Assembly (NCBI GenBank): GCA_026692905.1
Contig: JAPLNL010000116.1
Location: forward strand, 1 to 58,165
Source: Planctomycetota bacterium
GTDB taxonomy: Bacteria; Planctomycetota; Planctomycetia; Pirellulales; Pirellulaceae
Length of the DNA stretch: 58,165 bases
Direction: 5' to 3'
Each line of letters opens with the position of its first letter. The stretch's first letter is position 1. A program made the translations under genes and the position numbers. Positions 4,416 through 27,951 of the stretch are shown piece after piece. The notes beneath the pieces are model-generated. The model made no database searches. It saw only the letters and a list, made by a program, of their open reading frames with translations, and was not told where the DNA came from.

Positions 4416-4534
4416 GAAAAAGAGCCTTTCGGCTGGGTCGCGTTCGAATCAAGACATGATCCAATCTTGGCACCGTTGCGAGTCCACGAAGCCGCCTCCA
4501 TTAACTTGGTCACCGCAACGTGACCATTCCGCTC

Positions 4535-4564
4535 AAGACCCGCTGGTTCATCCCAGCGGGTCTT
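4535..4564. terminator. Hairpin, perfect 12-bp stem
   Basis: AAGACCCGCTGG pairs perfectly with CCAGCGGGTCTT around a 6-base loop (TTCATC). The right arm is followed by TGCGTTTCT, a weak T-rich tail on the + strand. It could terminate transcription, but no intact gene lies just upstream, so its purpose here is uncertain. Confidence 0.5.
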
Positions 4565-5291
4565 TGCGTTTCTACCCAATAAATCTAAGGGTTTTGCGAT
4601 TCGTCGAGCTTCTCCGCTACACAAACCACGGGCCACCCAAAAAGGCTCAAATCGGGGCCAAAGGCTCTAAACCACGGGACGACCCCCAAACACGTCCCGT
4701 GCTCAGAAACCCTGCAAAACACGGCACTTTCGTGATTTCCAACCAGCGTGAGGTTTTAGCGAAAAGCGCCAGTGGCAGTGACATGAAAAACCTGACCATC
4801 GCGTCCCGCGGTGATGAGCAGATTCCCAAGTGGCGAGTGCATGTTGCGTTCTTCTTACGCTGTTCTTACGAGCTGTTCCGCTGCTACGATGTCGCCCAAA
4901 GAAGCATCGGACCTGGAAACAACTGATCCTCGTCGGAAATACACCATAAGTACACCCCAAGGTTGGGAGTACTGAATCGCGAGATGCGGTCTGGTCGCTG
5001 GTTTTTCGAGTGCTCATCCGAGGGGTGCCCCTTTCGACTTGCGTACTATTACGCGAACTGTCAGCTTCGCCGTGCGTCGATTGAGACGGTTTTGATAAAC
5101 CCAGAACAAACAACTCGCACCGGTTTGGGTGACCGGAGCGACTTGGTGCTACAAATTCGGCCTTCAAGTCTTGTCGCAAGACGAGCTACGACAACAATTT
5201 GGCCCGTAACAAATTTGGCTCGCAACAGCTTATTTCGTTTCTATCCAGTAGTAAGGTTCAGTTCCAGAAAAACGGGAACAAACCAATAAAC

Positions 5292-6302: not shown

Positions 6303-7325
6303 TCAACCCACATTGGCAAGATGCCGCACGCTTAACTTGCTTGCCAACTCCCGCAACCTGTCTCGACTCGCAGCCAGAAACCTCCCAAGCAACCGACCAC
6401 CAACCAACTTGGTCATCCGAACGCCCCACGACTCCGGCGTGCAACCAAGCCTCGCGAAAACACCCGCAACCTCATTCGAAATCGCCACCTTCCCATTGCG
6501 CAACATCCGACCTGTATATTCAACCAACATCACATATTGCCCAAGCGTAAATCCACTGCTCATCCCCTCACGCAACGAACCAAGCCCTCGGCGATCCTCA
6601 ACCGGAACCAACCAAAGCTCATCCTCGAGCCCACCGCTAACCCGAGCCGCCGCCACACTCCCAAGCTCCGCAGCTTGCAAATCCTTAGCCCGACCTGCCG
6701 CAACCACATGTTCCACTCGAGCCTTCACCGAAGTATGCTCGCTCGCCTCGGGAGTCTCAGCAATCCCTGCCGCAACTGGATTCAAATCAATATAGGCACA
6801 CACCGTAAGAAGCGACTCGTCATCAAGAATCGCAATCGATTTGAAACGCCCCTCAAAGAAAGCGCCGGTGCATTTATCTTGCTTATTCGCAAGCCGAGCC
6901 AACGGTTCTTTAAGGCACTTCATAAACCAACCAAGCGACGTCAATCGCTTACGAGCACCAGCCACCCAATCCGCATTCGCAACCCGCGCCGCAACAAGCT
7001 CTTTTGAAACCTTCATCGGCTTGCGATCCGAACAGCGTGGCGGAAACAGTCGAAACCAACGCTCAACCACTTCCGAATCCGACCAAGCAATAGCTGTCTC
7101 AGGATCAATACGCAGCAACAAGTGCAAATGATTGTCCATCAGACTGAACCCGCCAACCGAAACGGCAAAGATCCTATCAAGTTCCTACAGCCGATTCTCG
7201 ATCCAGTCCTTACGCCCAGCCCCCGCGTCATCGCCCAAAAAATGCGCCCGGCGAACGCAGCGCGAAATACAGTGATACCAACGACTTACCGTCGCATCAA
7301 CAAGTCGGGAACGGGAAATAGTCAT
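6303..7325 (-). pseudogene. RAYT-like transposase with in-frame amber stop
   Basis: Reading from ATG at 7325 (AGGAG 8 bases upstream) gives MTISRSRLVDATVSRWYHC, then ISRCVRRAHFLGDDAGAGRK, a TAG at 7187-7185 (codon 47) and then, in the same frame, ELDRIFAVSVGGFSLMDNHL with HLHLLLRID. This is the Y1-transposase pattern with the HLH metal motif, followed by GAFFEGRFKSIAILDDES and YIDLNPVAAGIA. The whole frame is 340 codons. The TAG stands where CAG (Gln) would fit. Without suppression only 46 residues, or a product from an internal start at 7139, would be made. These transposases process REP hairpins. Confidence 0.7.
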
Positions 7326-7419
7326 AGCAAAGCTCCTGCACGAAGATACGATTCAACACGCAAATCTTACCAAAACGACCTCAGTCAATCGCTGTGCCTG
7401 TCCTTTTTTGCTTTTATTC

Positions 7420-22832: not shown

Positions 22833-23135
22833 TTGGCCTGCACTTTAGTTGATTGGTATCGAAATCGCAAGCAACTCTCGAACGCGTTTCTGCAATTCTT
22901 CACCTTCGATGGTGAGATCGACGTCCCTACTGGGGTTTTCGTTGTGATCGAGGAAAAGGATTTTGAATTGGGACAATTGCAACAGAATGACGGCATTTCT
23001 CGTCTCGAATTTCGACCTGTCGGGTGCCCAACATGCCAATCAATGGGCTCAATCGTGCAATGGTTTGAGCCGGACCAAAAATGCCCGAAATGCAAGACTG
23101 GTTCAGTACAGCTTCGCGGATCGTGCATATACTAG
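22833..23135 (+). CDS. Small zinc-ribbon-like protein
   Basis: From a TTG at 22833 the frame gives 100 residues with an acidic middle (TFDGEIDVPTGVFVVIEEKD) and a C-terminal GCPTCQSMGSIVQWF then KCPKCKTGSVQL. The paired CxxC motifs 17 residues apart look like a zinc ribbon. No ATG or clear ribosome-binding site is present. The reverse strand (23039-22845) also holds a plausible 64-residue frame ending ELQKRVRELLAISIPIN, so the coding strand is not certain. I favour + because of the Cys pattern and because the following genes all run that way. Confidence 0.4.
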   Translation: MACTLVDWYRNRKQLSNAFLQFFTFDGEIDVPTGVFVVIEEKDFELGQLQQNDGISRLEFRPVGCPTCQSMGSIVQWFEPDQKCPKCKTGSVQLRGSCIY

Positions 23136-23212
23136 TCTCGAACTAACGATTGCACTTTAGATTGTTTTTGCCGACGCCGCGCCGAGGAATCACTAATTCT
23201 GAGATCGGAGAG

Positions 23213-23689
23213 ATGAAGCTTGAAGACTGGCTAAAATCGTATATTACCGCAGCATTTGCTCGCGTGACTCTCGAAGACGGTGTTGACATCCACACAGCCA
23301 AGGTTCGAGATTCGTACGGTTCCGATCAAGACGAATCGCAGCGCGCTGTGTCGTGCCAACGATGCGATTGGCGGTTTGTGGATCCTCAACTCCTCCGTGA
23401 TCGAGCTTGGGTTTTAACATTCCTCGACACCAAAGGATTCCGCTTCTATCTGCCAGCAATCATGATTGACATCATTGACGACGAACGAACATCCGACTTG
23501 GCCGAGACGCTATTTTACAAATTTTCTGTTACGCATGATGGTCGCTTAATGGACCAGCGGTATGTCGATGTCTTCAATCGATCTCAGCGTGCGGCGGTTG
23601 TTCGTTTTCTAAAGTACTTGTGCCACAATCGCAATTGGCAACTCACTGGCCCCGCCGGTAAACTGCTTTATCGCCTTACTCAACGGTAA
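23213..23689 (+). CDS. DUF6714 family protein, first well-supported cassette gene
   Basis: ATG at 23213 follows GGAGAG by 1-5 bases and starts MKLEDWLKSYITAAFARVTL. The 158-residue product contains LEDGVDIHTAKVRDSYGSDQ, then DWRFVDPQLLRDRAWVLTFL and DTKGFRFYLPAIMIDII, which match DUF6714 as I remember it. The function is unknown; members are common as isolated small genes in planctomycetes and myxobacteria. No signal peptide is seen. Just upstream, at 23173-23192, lies a GCCGCGCC..GGAATCACTAAT version of the 3' end of the cassette repeat, so this gene heads the repeat-spaced array. Confidence 0.7.
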   Translation: MKLEDWLKSYITAAFARVTLEDGVDIHTAKVRDSYGSDQDESQRAVSCQRCDWRFVDPQLLRDRAWVLTFLDTKGFRFYLPAIMIDIIDDERTSDLAETLFYKFSVTHDGRLMDQRYVDVFNRSQRAAVVRFLKYLCHNRNWQLTGPAGKLLYRLTQR

Positions 23690-23695
23690 TTGGGA

Positions 23696-23729
23696 GACGC
23701 AGAACATAAGAAGGGTTAGAGTCTGCGTC
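23696..23729. other. Hairpin after the DUF6714 gene
   Basis: GACGCAGA and TCTGCGTC form a perfect 8-bp stem around 18 bases. The right arm with AAGGGTTAGAGTCTGCGTCG recurs in diverged form after 27140 (AAGGATTAGCTTCTGCGTCG), so it is shared by the 3' flanks of two array genes. No T-run follows. Confidence 0.4.
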
Positions 23730-23859
23730 GCCGTTCTATGGGCGCAAGCGGGTGGAATGCGGTCGCTTCCCCGATTTCTGTTTTGTGGATTAAGAAGTTA
23801 CCCAATCGACAGTTCTTGATTCACTAGGGCTGTCCCCCACCGCGACAACTTGTTTACCC

Positions 23860-24007
23860 CAACTCGCTCCGGTTTGACACGCCGGAGCGCCGGCTTTTGC
23901 TCGGCTCCTAGACAAACATTCAGCTCCAAGTAGGTTGCCTGCCCATTAAACCAGCCAGATCGAGTACATTGAGAATGTGTATCGGCGCCGCGCCGAAGAA
24001 TTACTAG
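23860..24007 (+). repeat. Cassette repeat, copy B (148 bp)
   Basis: It starts CAAC then a hairpin of CGCTCCGG and CCGGAGCG (23865-23889) around TTTGACACG. It has TACATT at 23965-23970, a second hairpin TCGGCG/CGCCGA (23982-23996), and ends GAATTACTAG. It stands between the DUF6714 gene and a 55-residue ORF. See copies at 24235, 24921 and 26041. Confidence 0.85.
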
Positions 24008-24041
24008 CTCTCGCGATTGGAAGGCAAATGGAGCGGTTCAG

Positions 24042-24209
24042 ATGGATTTAATAAAAGCGGATCAACGAACCAACCGAAGACGGGGCAACTCTCGGCGTAA
24101 CGCAATTGCAATCATAGCCTTTGCCACCATCATAACCGCAATTTACGTTGCCAGCGTCGGGCCAGTATTTGCAATTACCGTGTTTGCTATGGTCCTATGC
24201 AACTTCTGA
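24042..24209 (+). CDS. Small membrane protein (55 aa) in cassette array
   Basis: The frame starts ATG 35 bases after copy B and encodes a basic N-terminus (MDLIKADQRTNRRRGNSRRN) followed by one or two hydrophobic segments (AIAIIAFATIITAIYVASVG, then PVFAITVFAMVLCNF). Charge distribution suggests the N-terminus stays in the cytoplasm. GGAGCGG lies about 9 bases upstream and may serve as ribosome-binding site. I do not recognise a family. Its place between two copies of the repeat supports it as a real gene. Confidence 0.5.
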   Translation: MDLIKADQRTNRRRGNSRRNAIAIIAFATIITAIYVASVGPVFAITVFAMVLCNF

Positions 24210-24234
24210 CATTTCGAGGGGCAGACCCCGCCAC

Positions 24235-24401
24235 CAACTCGATCCGGTTTGACACGCCGGAGTGAAGGTGTTTCCTCAGCCCCCTGCCAAACGTTCTTCT
24301 CCAAGTAGCTCGCCGGCCCACTCAACCAGCCCTATCTTTTATTGTTCTTCTGTTCAACTGTGTCTTATATTGCCCTACTGGATATGCTAGATTAATTAGT
24401 T
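24235..24401 (+). repeat. Cassette repeat, copy C (3' half degenerate)
   Basis: CAACTCGATCCGG, TTTGACACG and CCGGAGTG keep the first hairpin with one mismatch and one G-T pair (24240-24264). CAACCAGCC in the middle is shared with other copies. The second hairpin is lost; AGATTAATTAGTT near 24390 may be the worn version of GAGAATTACTAGTT. Confidence 0.65.
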
Positions 24402-24440
24402 GAAACGACGTTGCTTCAGCTCTAGTTTCGTGGAACCATT

Positions 24441-24839
24441 ATGGAAGAGAAAAATCTGTCGCGAGCCTTCAGTGGAAATCCGTTGGGAGCAGCAGGCCTC
24501 ATCGTCTCAATTCTCGGATTCGCAATATCTCTTTTTGCTCTATCCTCTTGTTTCATACACCATAGCTCGAGATTCGCCGACTCGAAGCGAATAGCGAGTA
24601 AGAGGTATGAGGGAGGCGATCCGACTGTACTCACGGACAAAATCGGAATTGGAATATCCTACTTTTCGCAAGCGGTACTTTACGGCGCTAGCTTTCTAGT
24701 CGGCGGAACACTTTCGCTCGTGGGGTTCGCCCTTGGAATTGCTGGTGTTACGAGTGAGCCGAAATCAACAGCGATGGTTGCACTTGTTCTAAGTTTAGTA
24801 GGGCCTTTACTACTGTTGTTTTGTTTGGTCTTTTTTTAA
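24441..24839 (+). CDS. Small multi-pass membrane protein in cassette array
   Basis: The 132-residue protein begins MEEKNLSRAFSGNPLGAAGL and shows about four hydrophobic segments: LIVSILGFAISLFALSSCF, a segment around YFSQAVLYGASFLVGGTLSL, GFALGIAGV, and MVALVLSLVGPLLLLFCLVF at the C-terminus. The pattern of paired segments around Gly-rich turns recalls small DUF4190-like membrane proteins, but the match is loose. It lies between copies C and D of the repeat. Function is unknown. Confidence 0.65.
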   Translation: MEEKNLSRAFSGNPLGAAGLIVSILGFAISLFALSSCFIHHSSRFADSKRIASKRYEGGDPTVLTDKIGIGISYFSQAVLYGASFLVGGTLSLVGFALGIAGVTSEPKSTAMVALVLSLVGPLLLLFCLVFF

Positions 24840-24920
24840 GTTGTCCTCCAAAATCCATCGACGCCCCACACAGGAGGCATTGGGGTGGCCAACTCTTTGG
24901 CGAGGTGGGAAGCCATCGTC

Positions 24921-25070
24921 CAACTCGCTCCGGTTTGACACGCCGGAGCGTCGACATCCGGATGATCCAGCCAGGTCTTCCCTAACAGGAATACCGATAG
25001 CCCATCTGACCAGCCAATTGGGCTACAATCGAACTCTAGTTTACAGGCGCCTGCGTCTGAGAATTACTAG
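24921..25070 (+). repeat. Cassette repeat, copy D (150 bp)
   Basis: CGCTCCGG/CCGGAGCG hairpin at 24926-24950 with the same TTTGACACG loop; TACAAT at 25024-25029; second hairpin CAGGCGC/GCGTCTG at 25044-25059; ends GAATTACTAG. The edges GTCCAAC (24918-24924) and GTTACGC (25070-25076) resemble integron core sites, the first exactly and the second with one mismatch. Confidence 0.85.
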
Positions 25071-25088
25071 TTACGCAATAAGAGCAGT

Positions 25089-25496
25089 ATGCTACGGATC
25101 GGTAGAAGTAAGATGACGCTAATGTCTTTCGGAAGAGCGATGCCCATTCACATAGACATGCTTTCGCTCGTTGGCTACGAATCAGAAGATCGCGACATGG
25201 TGCCAGCAAAAAACTTAAATGCCCAAAAAAGAGCAATGATGTCAGGGCTTCACTCCTTACGACGGACTACAAACGTGGACTTTGGGTTCGATGCTGCGGC
25301 ATGGCGAGACTTTCTAATCGAATCCGGGAACGAGTTTGGATATACTCACCCATTTGCGTACAGGGCGGTAGACAAAGCGGTCCAAAATGCACTCGAAAAT
25401 CCAGATGTGCAGAATGCTCTGGCAATACTCGAAGTAGGTCGAAACGCCGCGTCTGAGAATCACAAGTTAGGCGACCACACCTTATCACTCTACTAG
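25089..25496 (+). CDS. Hypothetical protein running into a worn repeat
   Basis: Two starts are possible, ATG at 25089 and ATG at 25113 (MTLMSFGRAMPIHIDMLSLV). The body has GYESEDRDMVPAKNLNAQKR, then VDFGFDAAAWRDFLIESGNE and FGYTHPFAYRAVDKAVQNAL. I do not recognise a family. The last ~25 residues (VGRNAASENHKLGD...) are encoded by the shortened repeat copy E, so the original C-terminus was probably replaced when the cassette boundary decayed. The reading frame up to about 25435 is likely genuine. Confidence 0.55.
   Translation: MLRIGRSKMTLMSFGRAMPIHIDMLSLVGYESEDRDMVPAKNLNAQKRAMMSGLHSLRRTTNVDFGFDAAAWRDFLIESGNEFGYTHPFAYRAVDKAVQNALENPDVQNALAILEVGRNAASENHKLGDHTLSLY
25441..25475 (+). repeat. Cassette repeat, short copy E
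   Basis: Only the 3' part is left: ACGCCGCGT then CTGAGAATCACAAG and GTTAGGC. The final GTTAGGC fits the integron GTTRRRY core exactly. It separates the gene at 25089 from that at 25511. Confidence 0.55.
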
Positions 25497-25510
25497 AACT
25501 CGCAGGTACG

Positions 25511-25879
25511 TTGCCAAATGGGCTGCACGATTCTGAGGTAAGCGAGCTCGTTGTTTCGTATGCTGATCGTACGATTCGAATGTCGATCAACGTCTGGGTC
25601 GGTGATATGGATAACGAGGAATTGCGTGAATCGTATCGGCAGGGCGTCATTATGATTAATGACTTCGTGTACTGCGTGCTGGATCGGCCTGACGTAAATT
25701 ATCCATACGAATCGGCTCGCGTACTAACGATTGACGTCGCCCAACCCGACGAGTCAGTGGCACTAAAAGGCAATGGCGAAGCATGTCGGCTGTGGGTATC
25801 AGAATGGAACGGCTTCATACACATCCGTGCTGGTGATGCTACGCTGAAATGGCTCGGCCCGGCTGTCGTCAGAAGATGA
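25511..25879 (+). CDS. Hypothetical small protein, start codon unclear
   Basis: The frame reads LPNGLHDSEVSELVVSYADR, then MSINVWVGDMDNEELRESYR, YPYESARVLTIDVA and LWVSEWNGFIHIRAGDATLK. The phrase L-P-x-G-L-H-D-S-E followed by a WVGDMD strand is familiar to me from small uncharacterised bacterial proteins. The only usual start is TTG at 25511, which would remove the in-frame LITLLELAGT that also looks native. The true 5' end may have been lost with the boundary of repeat E, or translation may begin at a rare codon. Confidence 0.6.
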   Translation: MPNGLHDSEVSELVVSYADRTIRMSINVWVGDMDNEELRESYRQGVIMINDFVYCVLDRPDVNYPYESARVLTIDVAQPDESVALKGNGEACRLWVSEWNGFIHIRAGDATLKWLGPAVVRR

Positions 25880-26040
25880 AGTTAGTTTTTGGCATACTGG
25901 TTTCCCAATCAAATCCCATTTTTCATAAGGGGACCACGGGCTAGACTGCGGCCACTTGCTCAGTGTCGGTTTTGCGGCCCAAGCGGCATTTCTTGAGTCG
26001 CTTGGGATGCCCCCTCCGAGATATCTTGGCTGCTTTGCCT
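25880..26040 (+). other. Spacer between cassette gene and copy F
   Basis: This 3' flank holds no frame of note. It contains AAGCGGCATTTCTTGAGTCGCTTGG, a weak dyad, and no T-run. It separates the gene at 25511 from repeat F. Confidence 0.3.
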
Positions 26041-26189
26041 CAACTCGCTCCGGTTTGACACGCCGGTGCGTCGGTTTTTGCTCGGCTACCAGCCAAAACT
26101 TCACGCCAAATAGCTCGGCAGACCGTCCAACTCGCCAGATGGGTTACATTACGAATGTGTTTACCGGCACTTCGCCGGAGAATTACTAG
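26041..26189 (+). repeat. Cassette repeat, copy F (149 bp)
   Basis: CGCTCCGG/CCGGTGCG hairpin (26046-26070) with TTTGACACG loop; TACATT at 26145-26150; second hairpin CCGGC/GCCGG (26164-26178); ends GAATTACTAG. The second hairpin differs in sequence from that in B and D but keeps its pairing and its position. Confidence 0.85.
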
Positions 26190-26218
26190 TCACGCCTTCT
26201 CCACTTCAAGGTCTACAA

Positions 26219-26581
26219 TTGGCTAATCTATTCGAATCTTCTACACCCACAGGCCCGGATGGCGACGCTGTACGACACAATCGCATCGCGACCGCGAGAC
26301 GGCGCGTTCAGCTCGCGATTCTTTTATACTTATGCATCCTGCCATTGAATATCTTATTCACGAACTATGGTGAACTCGTCCCATTCGATGGCCTGCCGCT
26401 AGTGATTATTGTCTTTTTGATTTTTGGATTTGCCGCGATCTCTGTCTACGCACTTTCGAGTCGATTACAAACAAAGCCTACTGCGATACTCATGACCGTA
26501 GCCGCACTCATTCCGTTGCTTGGTTTCGCCATACTCTTGTACACCGCTACTCTGAAGACCGACGAAAGTAAACAAGCTTGA
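26219..26581 (+). CDS. Small membrane protein in cassette array
   Basis: A TTG start 30 bases after copy F gives a 120-residue protein (MANLFESSTPTGPDGDAVRH). Three hydrophobic segments follow a basic stretch: LAILLYLCILPLNILF, LPLVIIVFLIFGFAAISVYA and ILMTVAALIPLLGFAILLY. No known family comes to mind. It has the same design as the other array membrane proteins: short, basic near the first segment and with no catalytic motif. Confidence 0.6.
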   Translation: MANLFESSTPTGPDGDAVRHNRIATARRRVQLAILLYLCILPLNILFTNYGELVPFDGLPLVIIVFLIFGFAAISVYALSSRLQTKPTAILMTVAALIPLLGFAILLYTATLKTDESKQA

Positions 26582-26738
26582 CGCAACCCGCAGACGTCGC
26601 CATAATTGCGGAACGAAGTGTTGCAGCCAATCCCTCGATCAGTCGTTTTGACTTGCGTTGAGTCAACTGCTCGTGCTCGGTGCTGCCGGTCGTTACGGCC
26701 AATGTTGGAACCTTTCCGAATCAGTCCGGACAAAGCGA

Positions 26739-27140
26739 ATGGAACAACTAGACGAAAACGCTGCGACTAACGAGATTGGAGATCCTCCCAAGACGAGGCC
26801 TCTCCCTTCGGCTTGGCTGGCATTCTATTCTTGCACATTTCTCGTGGGAGGCCTGTACCTTGTCCGCCTCGTATGGACAAAAACAACATCGTTTCCGATC
26901 CTTACAACGTTTCTTGCCTCCGCAGCTTTCGCAGCTGGTATACTCTTGTGGCTTCAAAAACGGGTTGCACTGCGACTATACATTGCAATGGCACTTGGAC
27001 TTATTGTTTTCGCAGCTTATCGCTTTGCCATTGAGGGGTATACCTCCGGTCGCGTAGGAATGATCATCGGTGGATTGTTGATGTTTGCAGGCTACTCGTC
27101 AGTGTCTGAGGCGCTACCCATCGCAGGCCATAACAAATAA
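26739..27140 (+). CDS. Small membrane protein, last gene of the array
   Basis: ATG at 26739 starts MEQLDENAATNEIGDPPKTR; an upstream TTG at 26658 would add 27 residues of non-native look. Four hydrophobic segments follow: WLAFYSCTFLVGGLYLVRLV, LTTFLASAAFAAGILLWL, LYIAMALGLIVFAAYRFAI and VGMIIGGLLMFAGYSSV. I do not recognise a family. No complete repeat copy lies between this gene and the previous one, but its 3' flank shares the AAGGATTAG.TTCTGCGTCG motif with that of the DUF6714 gene. Confidence 0.6.
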   Translation: MEQLDENAATNEIGDPPKTRPLPSAWLAFYSCTFLVGGLYLVRLVWTKTTSFPILTTFLASAAFAAGILLWLQKRVALRLYIAMALGLIVFAAYRFAIEGYTSGRVGMIIGGLLMFAGYSSVSEALPIAGHNK

Positions 27141-27396
27141 AGGATTAGCTTCTGCGTCGTTCTACTGACGTATGCAGGCTGGTTTCTTCGGGGCAGAAAT
27201 AGCGTTTGTACCGATTAATCATGGTATACATCCGGCCATTAGGATTCGTGATACTTGTTCTCGCAATTCCACGTGACCAACATTCACCAAACCCCAAATC
27301 TGATCTACGTTTCGATAGTTCATAATGGGACATGACTATGGGCCCCGACTCCTCGAAACCGCAGTGATACCCCGAAACCAATTCACGAGCTGATGC

Positions 27397-27951
27397 ATGC
27401 GGTTGCAACGAAATCGCCACATTTGGAACGACTGGTTCCCGAAAAACCCAGTTCATCATCAACGCATTCGACGAGGCTTTTCTCTCGTTGAACTCGTGGT
27501 ATATGTCGCTGTCGTCGCAATCTTAGCTATCTCTTTCATCCGCGTCCTAGACCACACCGAAAAAGCGAAAGTCGCTTCGGTTGCCAAAACGGCACGACTG
27601 ATCAACGATGTTGCAAGTACTATTTTTGCAACGACCGGCGCGTGGCCAGCCGATGTTAACAATAGCATCCTACCAACTTCAATGAATCCATTCCTATCAA
27701 CCAATACGCAAAGTATTTTCGCCAATGACACTCCGTTGAAAGGGCGTTGGGATTGGAACGGACCGACAAACGCTGTTAGTAATCTCATCGGAATCTCGTT
27801 GCGATTCAACCCGCCATCCACTGCGGATCAACAGCTTCTCACAAAGCTTGACATCTTGATTGACGATGGCGATCTGGATACGGGCAGTTGCCGAAAAATC
27901 ACCAACAGTGGATCGCTTTTCTACGTGATCTCTGTTGCGACGAAAAACTGA
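27397..27951 (+). CDS. Type IV pilin-like/pseudopilin with prepilin leader
   Basis: The product of 184 residues has RRGFSLVELVVYVAVVAIL, the classic prepilin peptidase site G|FSLVE with Glu at +5, followed by a hydrophobic helix. The leader is long (about 27 residues) and basic. The mature part contains GAWPADVNNSILPTSMNPFL, RWDWNGPTNAVSN and a C-terminal SCRKITNSGSLFYVISV, as in the short pseudopilins of planctomycete type II secretion or DUF1559-related families. No pilus operon genes flank it, so it is an orphan and may be an array passenger or a housekeeping gene. Confidence 0.75.
   Translation: MRLQRNRHIWNDWFPKNPVHHQRIRRGFSLVELVVYVAVVAILAISFIRVLDHTEKAKVASVAKTARLINDVASTIFATTGAWPADVNNSILPTSMNPFLSTNTQSIFANDTPLKGRWDWNGPTNAVSNLIGISLRFNPPSTADQQLLTKLDILIDDGDLDTGSCRKITNSGSLFYVISVATKN

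Follow-up and report, generated by a model that had tools for sequence, protein, structure and literature searches.

A repeated core and attI-like module in a small-gene array of a planctomycete contig

The window analysed here is a stretch of 58,165 nucleotides (positions 1 to 58,165 of contig JAPLNL010000116.1) from a Planctomycetota bacterium in the family Pirellulaceae [GenBank assembly GCA_026692905.1], and positions 22,833 to 27,140 hold a row of small genes separated by copies of a repeat. The repeat splits into two differently behaving parts, a 25-bp core on the left, CGCWCCGGTTTGACACGCCGGWGCG, and an attI-like module of ~50 nt on the right. With moderate confidence, the array is interpreted as a short series of integron-derived units, in which an attI-like site and a cassette recur and which are bounded by a separate exchange site. 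The original prediction, made from the sequence alone, had described eight small genes, here confirmed as eight open reading frames (ORFs) on one strand, and had suggested a distinct cassette system. Its cassette idea is largely borne out. A genuine attC-type site (26608–26698) lies in the same array, which is therefore integron-related and not wholly separate. The genome holding the window is referred to as G000, and G021, G017, G023, G006 and similar designations are the relatives compared with it.

The repeat consists of a core and an attI-like module

Complete copies of the repeat, designated B, D and F, were read directly at 23860–24007 (148 nt), 24921–25070 (150 nt) and 26041–26189 (149 nt), in agreement with the lengths originally given. 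Each contains, in order, CGCTCCGG-TTTGACACG-CCGG(A/T)GCG, then a box reading TACATT or TACAAT, another small hairpin and GAATTACTAG. The module end, made up of a TACAWT box, the small hairpin and GAGAATTACTA-G^TT, lies ~120 nt beyond the core and directly before a gene, and the general layout of the module is GGGTACATT, a 6-bp hairpin and GAGAATTACTAGTT. The three partial copies of the original prediction are all present, but two of them (23156–23198 and 25441–25468) are right-end pieces only, and the third, at 24235, has the first hairpin with 2 mismatches and a diverged right half.

The first hairpin is kept in the complete copies except for one broken pair in copy F (CGCTCCGG/CCGGTGCG). Its variable A/T pair shows no covariation (Fisher p = 0.34) in those 94 of 98 G021 copies where each of the two positions is A or T. 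The arm positions of the core are thus unlinked, and the hairpin therefore behaves like a DNA site, not an RNA stem; an RNA hairpin was ruled out for the core on this ground. The second hairpin had been described as changing its bases while keeping its pairing. The pairing stands, as 82.6% of cells are paired versus 32–42% in slid registers, but the covariation is only modest, with the score matched by 19 of 500 shuffles and the paired cells by 3 of 500. The number of pairs with changes on both sides is not above that in shuffles, because 314 of 500 reach it. No Rfam match at gathering score was found in the window.

Likeness to integron core sites is uncommon at the repeat edges. RYYYAAC occurs at 8 of 50 full copies, GTTRRRY at 1 of 50, and both together at none, and copies B, D and F are thus not the attC-like cassette ends first proposed. 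A strict R/L-box scan of the G021 array loci gave 4 sites versus 2.8 in shuffles, which also led to the rejection of the repeats as attC sites; the same scan gave 8 versus 3.2 at integrase loci where the attC model described below found 25 and is therefore insensitive, so the edge counts weigh more. A Helitron/IS91-like 3′-end (hairpin plus CTAG), considered on resemblance only, was dropped because the modules stand where attI stands.

Covariance models (CM) were used for both kinds of site. The module model, R1, was built from 77 sequences after 7 of 84 candidates had been left out by eye before alignment. The attC model, R2, was built from seven sites, the window site among them, and its alignment shows covariation and a single long hairpin in which an extra base stays unpaired. 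As a positive control, R2 found attC at 9 of 16 integron-integrase loci. When the best 150 candidates per genome were scored with R1, modules were found in all 8 core-bearing and in none of 6 core-free genomes of the genus that were searched, so that module and core occur together. In the closed genome G006, each of the 5 modules has a same-strand attC 0.4–1.1 kb downstream, with no attC upstream within the sequence examined, and 4 of these 5 places are independent of the R2 training set. These five modules lie upstream of attC arrays, and the module is therefore attI by position. One orthologous unit diverges between G021 and G000 at the module's end, and inexact matches ending GGGGATAATTACAAGTTC and GGGGGATAATTCATAGTTC were seen at plausible attI places in the integrase loci L088 and L083, respectively.

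Head-to-tail units and apparent exchange at the core

The core was searched for in G000 and 60 relatives as the 19-mer CTCCGGTTTGACACGCCGG with ≤2 mismatches, using the reversed pattern as a control. G000 contains 15 matches on 8 contigs and the same-genus genome G021 contains 109, forming same-strand series on most contigs, with 0 control matches in both. A hidden Markov model search found 109 repeat pieces in 19 G021 contigs. The further copies for which the original prediction had proposed a scan are thus present, and related arrays occur in the genus. A 19-mer match is found in 19 of the 60 relatives. In 7 of the 60 the reversed control gives one or two matches itself, and lone inexact matches outside the genus may therefore be due to chance and mean little. 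With a 25-mer and ≤2 mismatches, 13 of 199 genomes drawn from the family were positive, 9 of the 13 in the genus, and 392 genomes drawn from the phylum gave one weak match besides the own genome. Viral contigs searched with the exact core pattern gave no match, nor did plasmids and phages with one repeat as query. No description of this core or of attI-unit arrays was found in the open-access literature listings searched.

Units were defined as core-to-core stretches with adjacent cores <3.5 kb apart and were collected from seven genomes. Neighbouring cores lie head to tail, with the same orientation in 106 of 108 cases, and the 106 units have a median length of 828 bp. The longer ORF is on the strand of the repeat in 90 of the 106 (median 159.5 versus 89.5 aa), and forward ORFs of at least 60 aa start at a median of 140.5 nt past the core. 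The repeat is thus phased with genes, and not a repetitive extragenic palindrome (REP) unrelated to gene boundaries. Pfam searches of 96 unit ORFs returned 29 families, each in one or two ORFs and including SMI1/KNR4, DUF4262, DUF4240, DMP19, ankyrin and LRR; we take the unit genes to resemble integron-cassette and immunity-type genes. For the spacing of core and module, only G000 and G021 cores with at least 185 nt downstream were used (n = 111). The module end lies 100–139 nt past the core in 63 of these, 49 of them in a single 10-nt bin.

In the window, units 1 and 3 each run from a core through a module to a gene, unit 2 keeps its core but is diverged in the right half, and genes 2 and 6 are preceded by module fragments. 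Unit 4 holds both levels of organization, running from core 4 through module 4 and gene 7 to the attC site and gene 8 (Table 1).

Exchange was examined across species and loci using one genome per species, leaving out segment ends ≤60 bp from a locus end. For homologous segments of at least 350 bp and at least 80% identity, 18 of 60 usable ends fall within 25 bp of a core, versus 2.75 expected. An earlier set with fewer loci (at least 300 bp) gave 17 of 45 usable ends at cores, versus 2.59 expected. Many of the ends away from cores belong to copies of REP-associated tyrosine transposase (RAYT) genes. Units ending at cores on both sides in both genomes are shared by G021 and G023 (85% identity) and by G000 and G021 (83%), and for a unit shared by G006 and G021 (91%), a core marks one end in both genomes and the other end in G021 alone. 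Flanks that are 96–99% identical between two species diverge at the core in G017/G015, G011/G015 and G005/G017. Units are thus shared between species as blocks, as the cassette idea of the original prediction implies. Its refuting condition, genes that never move independently, did not hold in this comparison, since segments shared between species and loci end at the repeat. Left and right flanks of 88 cores are unassociated (Mantel r = −0.005, p = 0.61), in a test of limited power with similar left flanks in only 85 of 3828 pairs.

The centre of the core is exactly TTTGACACG in 98 of 105 G021 cores, none of which has G at the central base, and is TTTGGCACG in 7 of 7 G023 cores. Most genomes carry TTTGACACG, and TTTGGCACG is found in G006, G011, G012, G022, G023 and G024 (13 cores, including the 7 in G023). 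A centre that is nearly constant within a genome and differs between genomes would be expected if it were an overlap region whose sequence has to agree in the two recombining sites, the alternative being common descent.

Two irregular forms of the core were also seen. Several cores (L002, L077, L118, L120, L181 and L185) share an 11-bp tandem duplication of the centre (GTTTGACACGC), possibly the footprint of an aberrant exchange. At an array end in G021, a palindrome is formed by two core left halves placed head to head (L070:7912–7975, contig C33).

Proposed mechanism, recombinases and rival explanations

A full unit comprises the core (25 bp), ~75 nt, the attI-like module, a cassette gene, a 3′ flank belonging to one of several families, and the next core. 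Within the module, a promoter-like TACAWT box is followed by a leader hairpin and by ACTA-G^TT as the putative insertion point, and the module would act as an attI with its own cassette promoter, so that each cassette could be expressed separately. Some units also carry an attC and a second cassette, as with genes 7 and 8. Whole units would be shuffled at the core by a site-specific recombinase acting in trans, and cassettes would be exchanged at G^TT by an integron integrase, of which there is none above cut-off in G000 and one in about half of the genomes of the genus.

The cut-off of the integron integrase model TIGR02249 is passed by 14 of 27 same-genus genomes. The single integron integrase gene of G021 (L078, contig C416) neighbours an IS91-type Y2 transposase gene and one attC, and its contig carries no core. 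With one exception, tyrosine recombinase genes that share a contig with cores are distant from them, at ~8 kb in G000 (C94) and ~14–21 kb in G021 (C33, C25 and C70). The exception, a gene for a 347-aa tyrosine integrase in G002 (L130:9651–10691, contig C73), has its end within a few tens of bp of a core, and was rejected as the enzyme of the core as its other matches in the genus are only 29–32% identical and occur in 3 genomes.

Several observations weigh against integron-derived units exchanged at the core. Among the 111 G000 and G021 cores, 48 have no recognisable module. Conversely, 16 of 20 modules examined outside the main core arrays have no upstream core, one of these (L184) having half a core, and neither module fragment in the window has one. 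The association of modules with core-bearing genomes is affected by the fact that 4 of the 8 positive genomes (G000, G021, G017 and G002) supplied R1 training sequences and that only the best 150 candidates per genome were scored. The likeness to attI is weak: 10 matches (≤3 mismatches) to AGAATTACTAGTT were found in 11 integrase loci, only 2 or 3 of them (L083, L088 and perhaps L093) where attI should be, and none of 21 integrase loci gave a module with R1. Of 60 segment ends, 1 falls at the module end, versus 0.61 expected, and attI function therefore rests on position. The TACAWT box has no evident −35 partner. The best TIGR02249 match in G000 scores 85 bits against a cut-off of 265; the array is in this respect without an integrase, as originally predicted, and the recombinase acting at the core is a postulated one. 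The segment pairs behind the 18 of 60 core-bound ends are not all independent. Both centre types occur in G002 (TTTGGCACG in 1 of 5 cores) and G009 (1 of 4 among the matches listed), and most genomes of the G type have just one or two cores. Finally, homologous recombination could also yield breaks at cores if the core is the only sequence shared between contexts.

This last point belongs to the main rival explanation, which is possible but doubtful. The core would then be no recombination site but a conserved element, such as a protein-binding site, within a duplicated attI/promoter region, and units would be reshuffled by ordinary homologous recombination at short identical stretches. The near-fixed distance between core and module agrees with it, as does the need to postulate a core recombinase. 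However, ~25 bp is, we assume, a short stretch for homologous recombination to work on efficiently, the module is missing from core-like matches in other genera (G170 and G107), and cores adjoin helix-turn-helix (HTH) genes. Moreover, the G021 centre is near-invariant while its flanks diverge, and the middle base differs between genomes.

The HTH genes bring in another explanation, also rather unlikely, in which a large serine recombinase, encoded together with a small HTH protein, uses the core as its attachment site, and the pair integrates and shuffles the units. An HTH gene of the kind that follows large serine recombinases precedes a core in G006 (L169), G023 (L166), G000 (L002) and G021 (L196), the core starting 9, 29, 103 and 107 nt, respectively, beyond its last sense codon and always in the same relative orientation. 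The rough expectation is 0.0002–0.014 HTH-core pairs per genome, PF00239 counts having been used in place of HTH counts. L196 has a full-length enzyme with PF00239, PF07508 and PF13408. In L169, L174 and L180, HTH matches are found 54–355 nt upstream of a module, the one in L180 at E = 8e-5. However, among 16 serine-recombinase loci with the HTH gene, 15 of which have downstream sequence, a core within 420 nt was found only at L196 and was absent in 14 of the 15, and the core-adjacent HTH genes fall in divergent clades. The adjacent recombinase ORF is only a C-terminal part of 242 codons in G000 and 171 codons in G006, and the L166 contig ends before it. PF00239 genes are also present in core-free genomes, and R2 found no attC in 20 serine-recombinase loci. 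The recombinase and HTH pair is thus only a candidate for the enzyme of the core, and may be cargo. Should it serve the core, the attI-plus-cassette units would themselves be cassettes of a core system, giving two levels in which each gene has its own promoter and units are traded between species; this extension is put forward tentatively.

In G006, tRNA-like repeats at L169:119–3780 suggest a dense cluster of tRNA genes close to the core, the HTH genes and the attC array.

A plain cluster of attC sites lacking integron integrases (CALIN), that is, an ordinary cassette array with decayed attC sites, is improbable. It would account for the attC between genes 7 and 8, for cassette-like genes such as SMI1/KNR4, DUF4240 and DMP19, and for the lack of an integrase above cut-off. 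However, the repeats lack attC edges, R2 detected just 7 attC (E ≤ 0.1) across the array loci of G021, decay would not leave core and module constant, and core-to-core units are common to different species. Spread of the 150-bp repeat as a small mobile element by REP/RAYT or another hairpin transposon, although in keeping with its near-constant length and conserved ends and with RAYT-like genes or fragments ~1–17 kb from cores in G000 and G021, is very improbable given the uniform, gene-phased orientation of the cores, shared segments that span genes and stop at cores, and RAYT relatives (at least 60% identity) that were not found in G017 (21 cores) yet are present in core-free G007, so that, from genome to genome, relatives of the nearby RAYT do not go along with cores. 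One RAYT-like transposase gene copy with an internal TAG is located in the window at 6303–7404, and its relatives are on the core-bearing contigs C63 and C40.

Known systems and features of the array

The interpretation as integron-derived units places the array closest to integrons, chromosomal integrons and CALINs, with which it shares an attC in the array, attI-like sites before cassettes and short single-gene cassettes oriented one way; integrons with integrase and attC occur in the genus. It differs in having an attI-like site with a promoter-like box before many cassettes, a core as second exchange site and no integrase above cut-off. In ordinary integrons, cassettes depend mainly on one platform promoter, and their expression depends on the distance from it. 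If the interpretation is correct, an attI-like site and box before many cassettes would bypass this distance limit, and the array would show integrons evolving into modular promoter-gene arrays.

Published attC models cover Planctomycetes among other taxa [PMC8352920], and integrons are also reported from them [PMC9668308]. Cassettes of the attI-gene-attI kind, recombined by IntI1, are reported as rare in class 1 and 2 integrons, with 96 and 14 cases of the Delta-attI type among 1,685 class 1 and 57 class 2 integrons, respectively [PMC12901181]. These too have a gene flanked by attI or partial attI copies, whereas the present units number dozens in one genome and include the core. Vibrio superintegrons are described as containing gene-less, promoter-bearing cassettes from which distal cassettes are expressed [PMC11014356]. 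Internal promoters would be common to both, but in Vibrio the promoter is itself a cassette, whereas in the present array it is the attI-like region that recurs. In Acinetobacter, the dif/pdif (XerCD) modules and module islands likewise form linear arrays, with a short recombination site on either side of each gene module [PMC12907356].

The units described here carry an attI-like module, unlike dif/pdif modules, and the core looks unlike the dif consensus. The core was rejected as a dif site: the G006 core, the only one among the matches listed, is at 6.06 Mb of 6.53 Mb with dnaA at 0.6 kb, which is not the expected terminus.

Table 1. Features of the array, with positions in the window.
Feature	Position	Strand	Basis
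Partial attI-like module, right end only, ahead of DUF6714 gene	23156..23198	+	CM R1 32.9 bits
Gene 2, 158 aa, DUF6714	23213..23689	+	PF20461 E=4.5e-21
Left-flank module, family II, approximate limits, between gene 2 and core 1	23695..23859	+	Repeat D5; similar flanks in G021, G002, G000
Core 1	23865..23889	+	19-mer matches, direct reading
attI-like module 1 (TACATT box, hairpin, GAATTACTAG)	23962..24009	+	CM R1 59.9 bits; in R1 training set
Gene 3, 55 aa ORF	24042..24209	+	ORF list
Core 2, 2 mismatches	24240..24264	+	25-mer match, direct reading
Possible degenerate attI end AGATTAATTAGTT of copy 2	24389..24401	+	By eye; CM R1 no match
Gene 4, 132 aa ORF	24441..24839	+	No Pfam match
Core 3	24926..24950	+	19-mer matches, direct reading
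attI-like module 3	25021..25072	+	CM R1 48.2 bits; in R1 training set
Gene 5, 135 aa ORF running into attI-like fragment	25089..25496	+	ORF list
attI-like fragment, right end, ending near CACAAGTTAGGC	25441..25468	+	CM R1 16.2 bits, E=0.11
Gene 6, 122 aa ORF	25511..25879	+	No Pfam match at cut-off
Core 4	26046..26070	+	19-mer matches, direct reading
attI-like module 4	26142..26191	+	CM R1 65.5 bits; in R1 training set
Gene 7, 120 aa ORF	26219..26581	+	PF12698 24.4 bits, below cut-off
Canonical attC-type site between genes 7 and 8	26608..26698	+	CM R2 78.6 bits; site belongs to the 7-sequence alignment of R2
Gene 8, 133 aa ORF	26739..27140	+	No Pfam match

DUF6714 is the only Pfam match above cut-off among the eight array genes. 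A piece of the family II left-flank module (23700–23730) recurs at 27129–27159. Just past the array, a 184-aa ORF (27397–27951) has a type IV pilin-like N-methylation motif. Elsewhere in the window, the segment at 4492–5141 is 89% identical to part of contig C134 of the same genome and, over 282 bp, 93% identical to contig C70 of G005.

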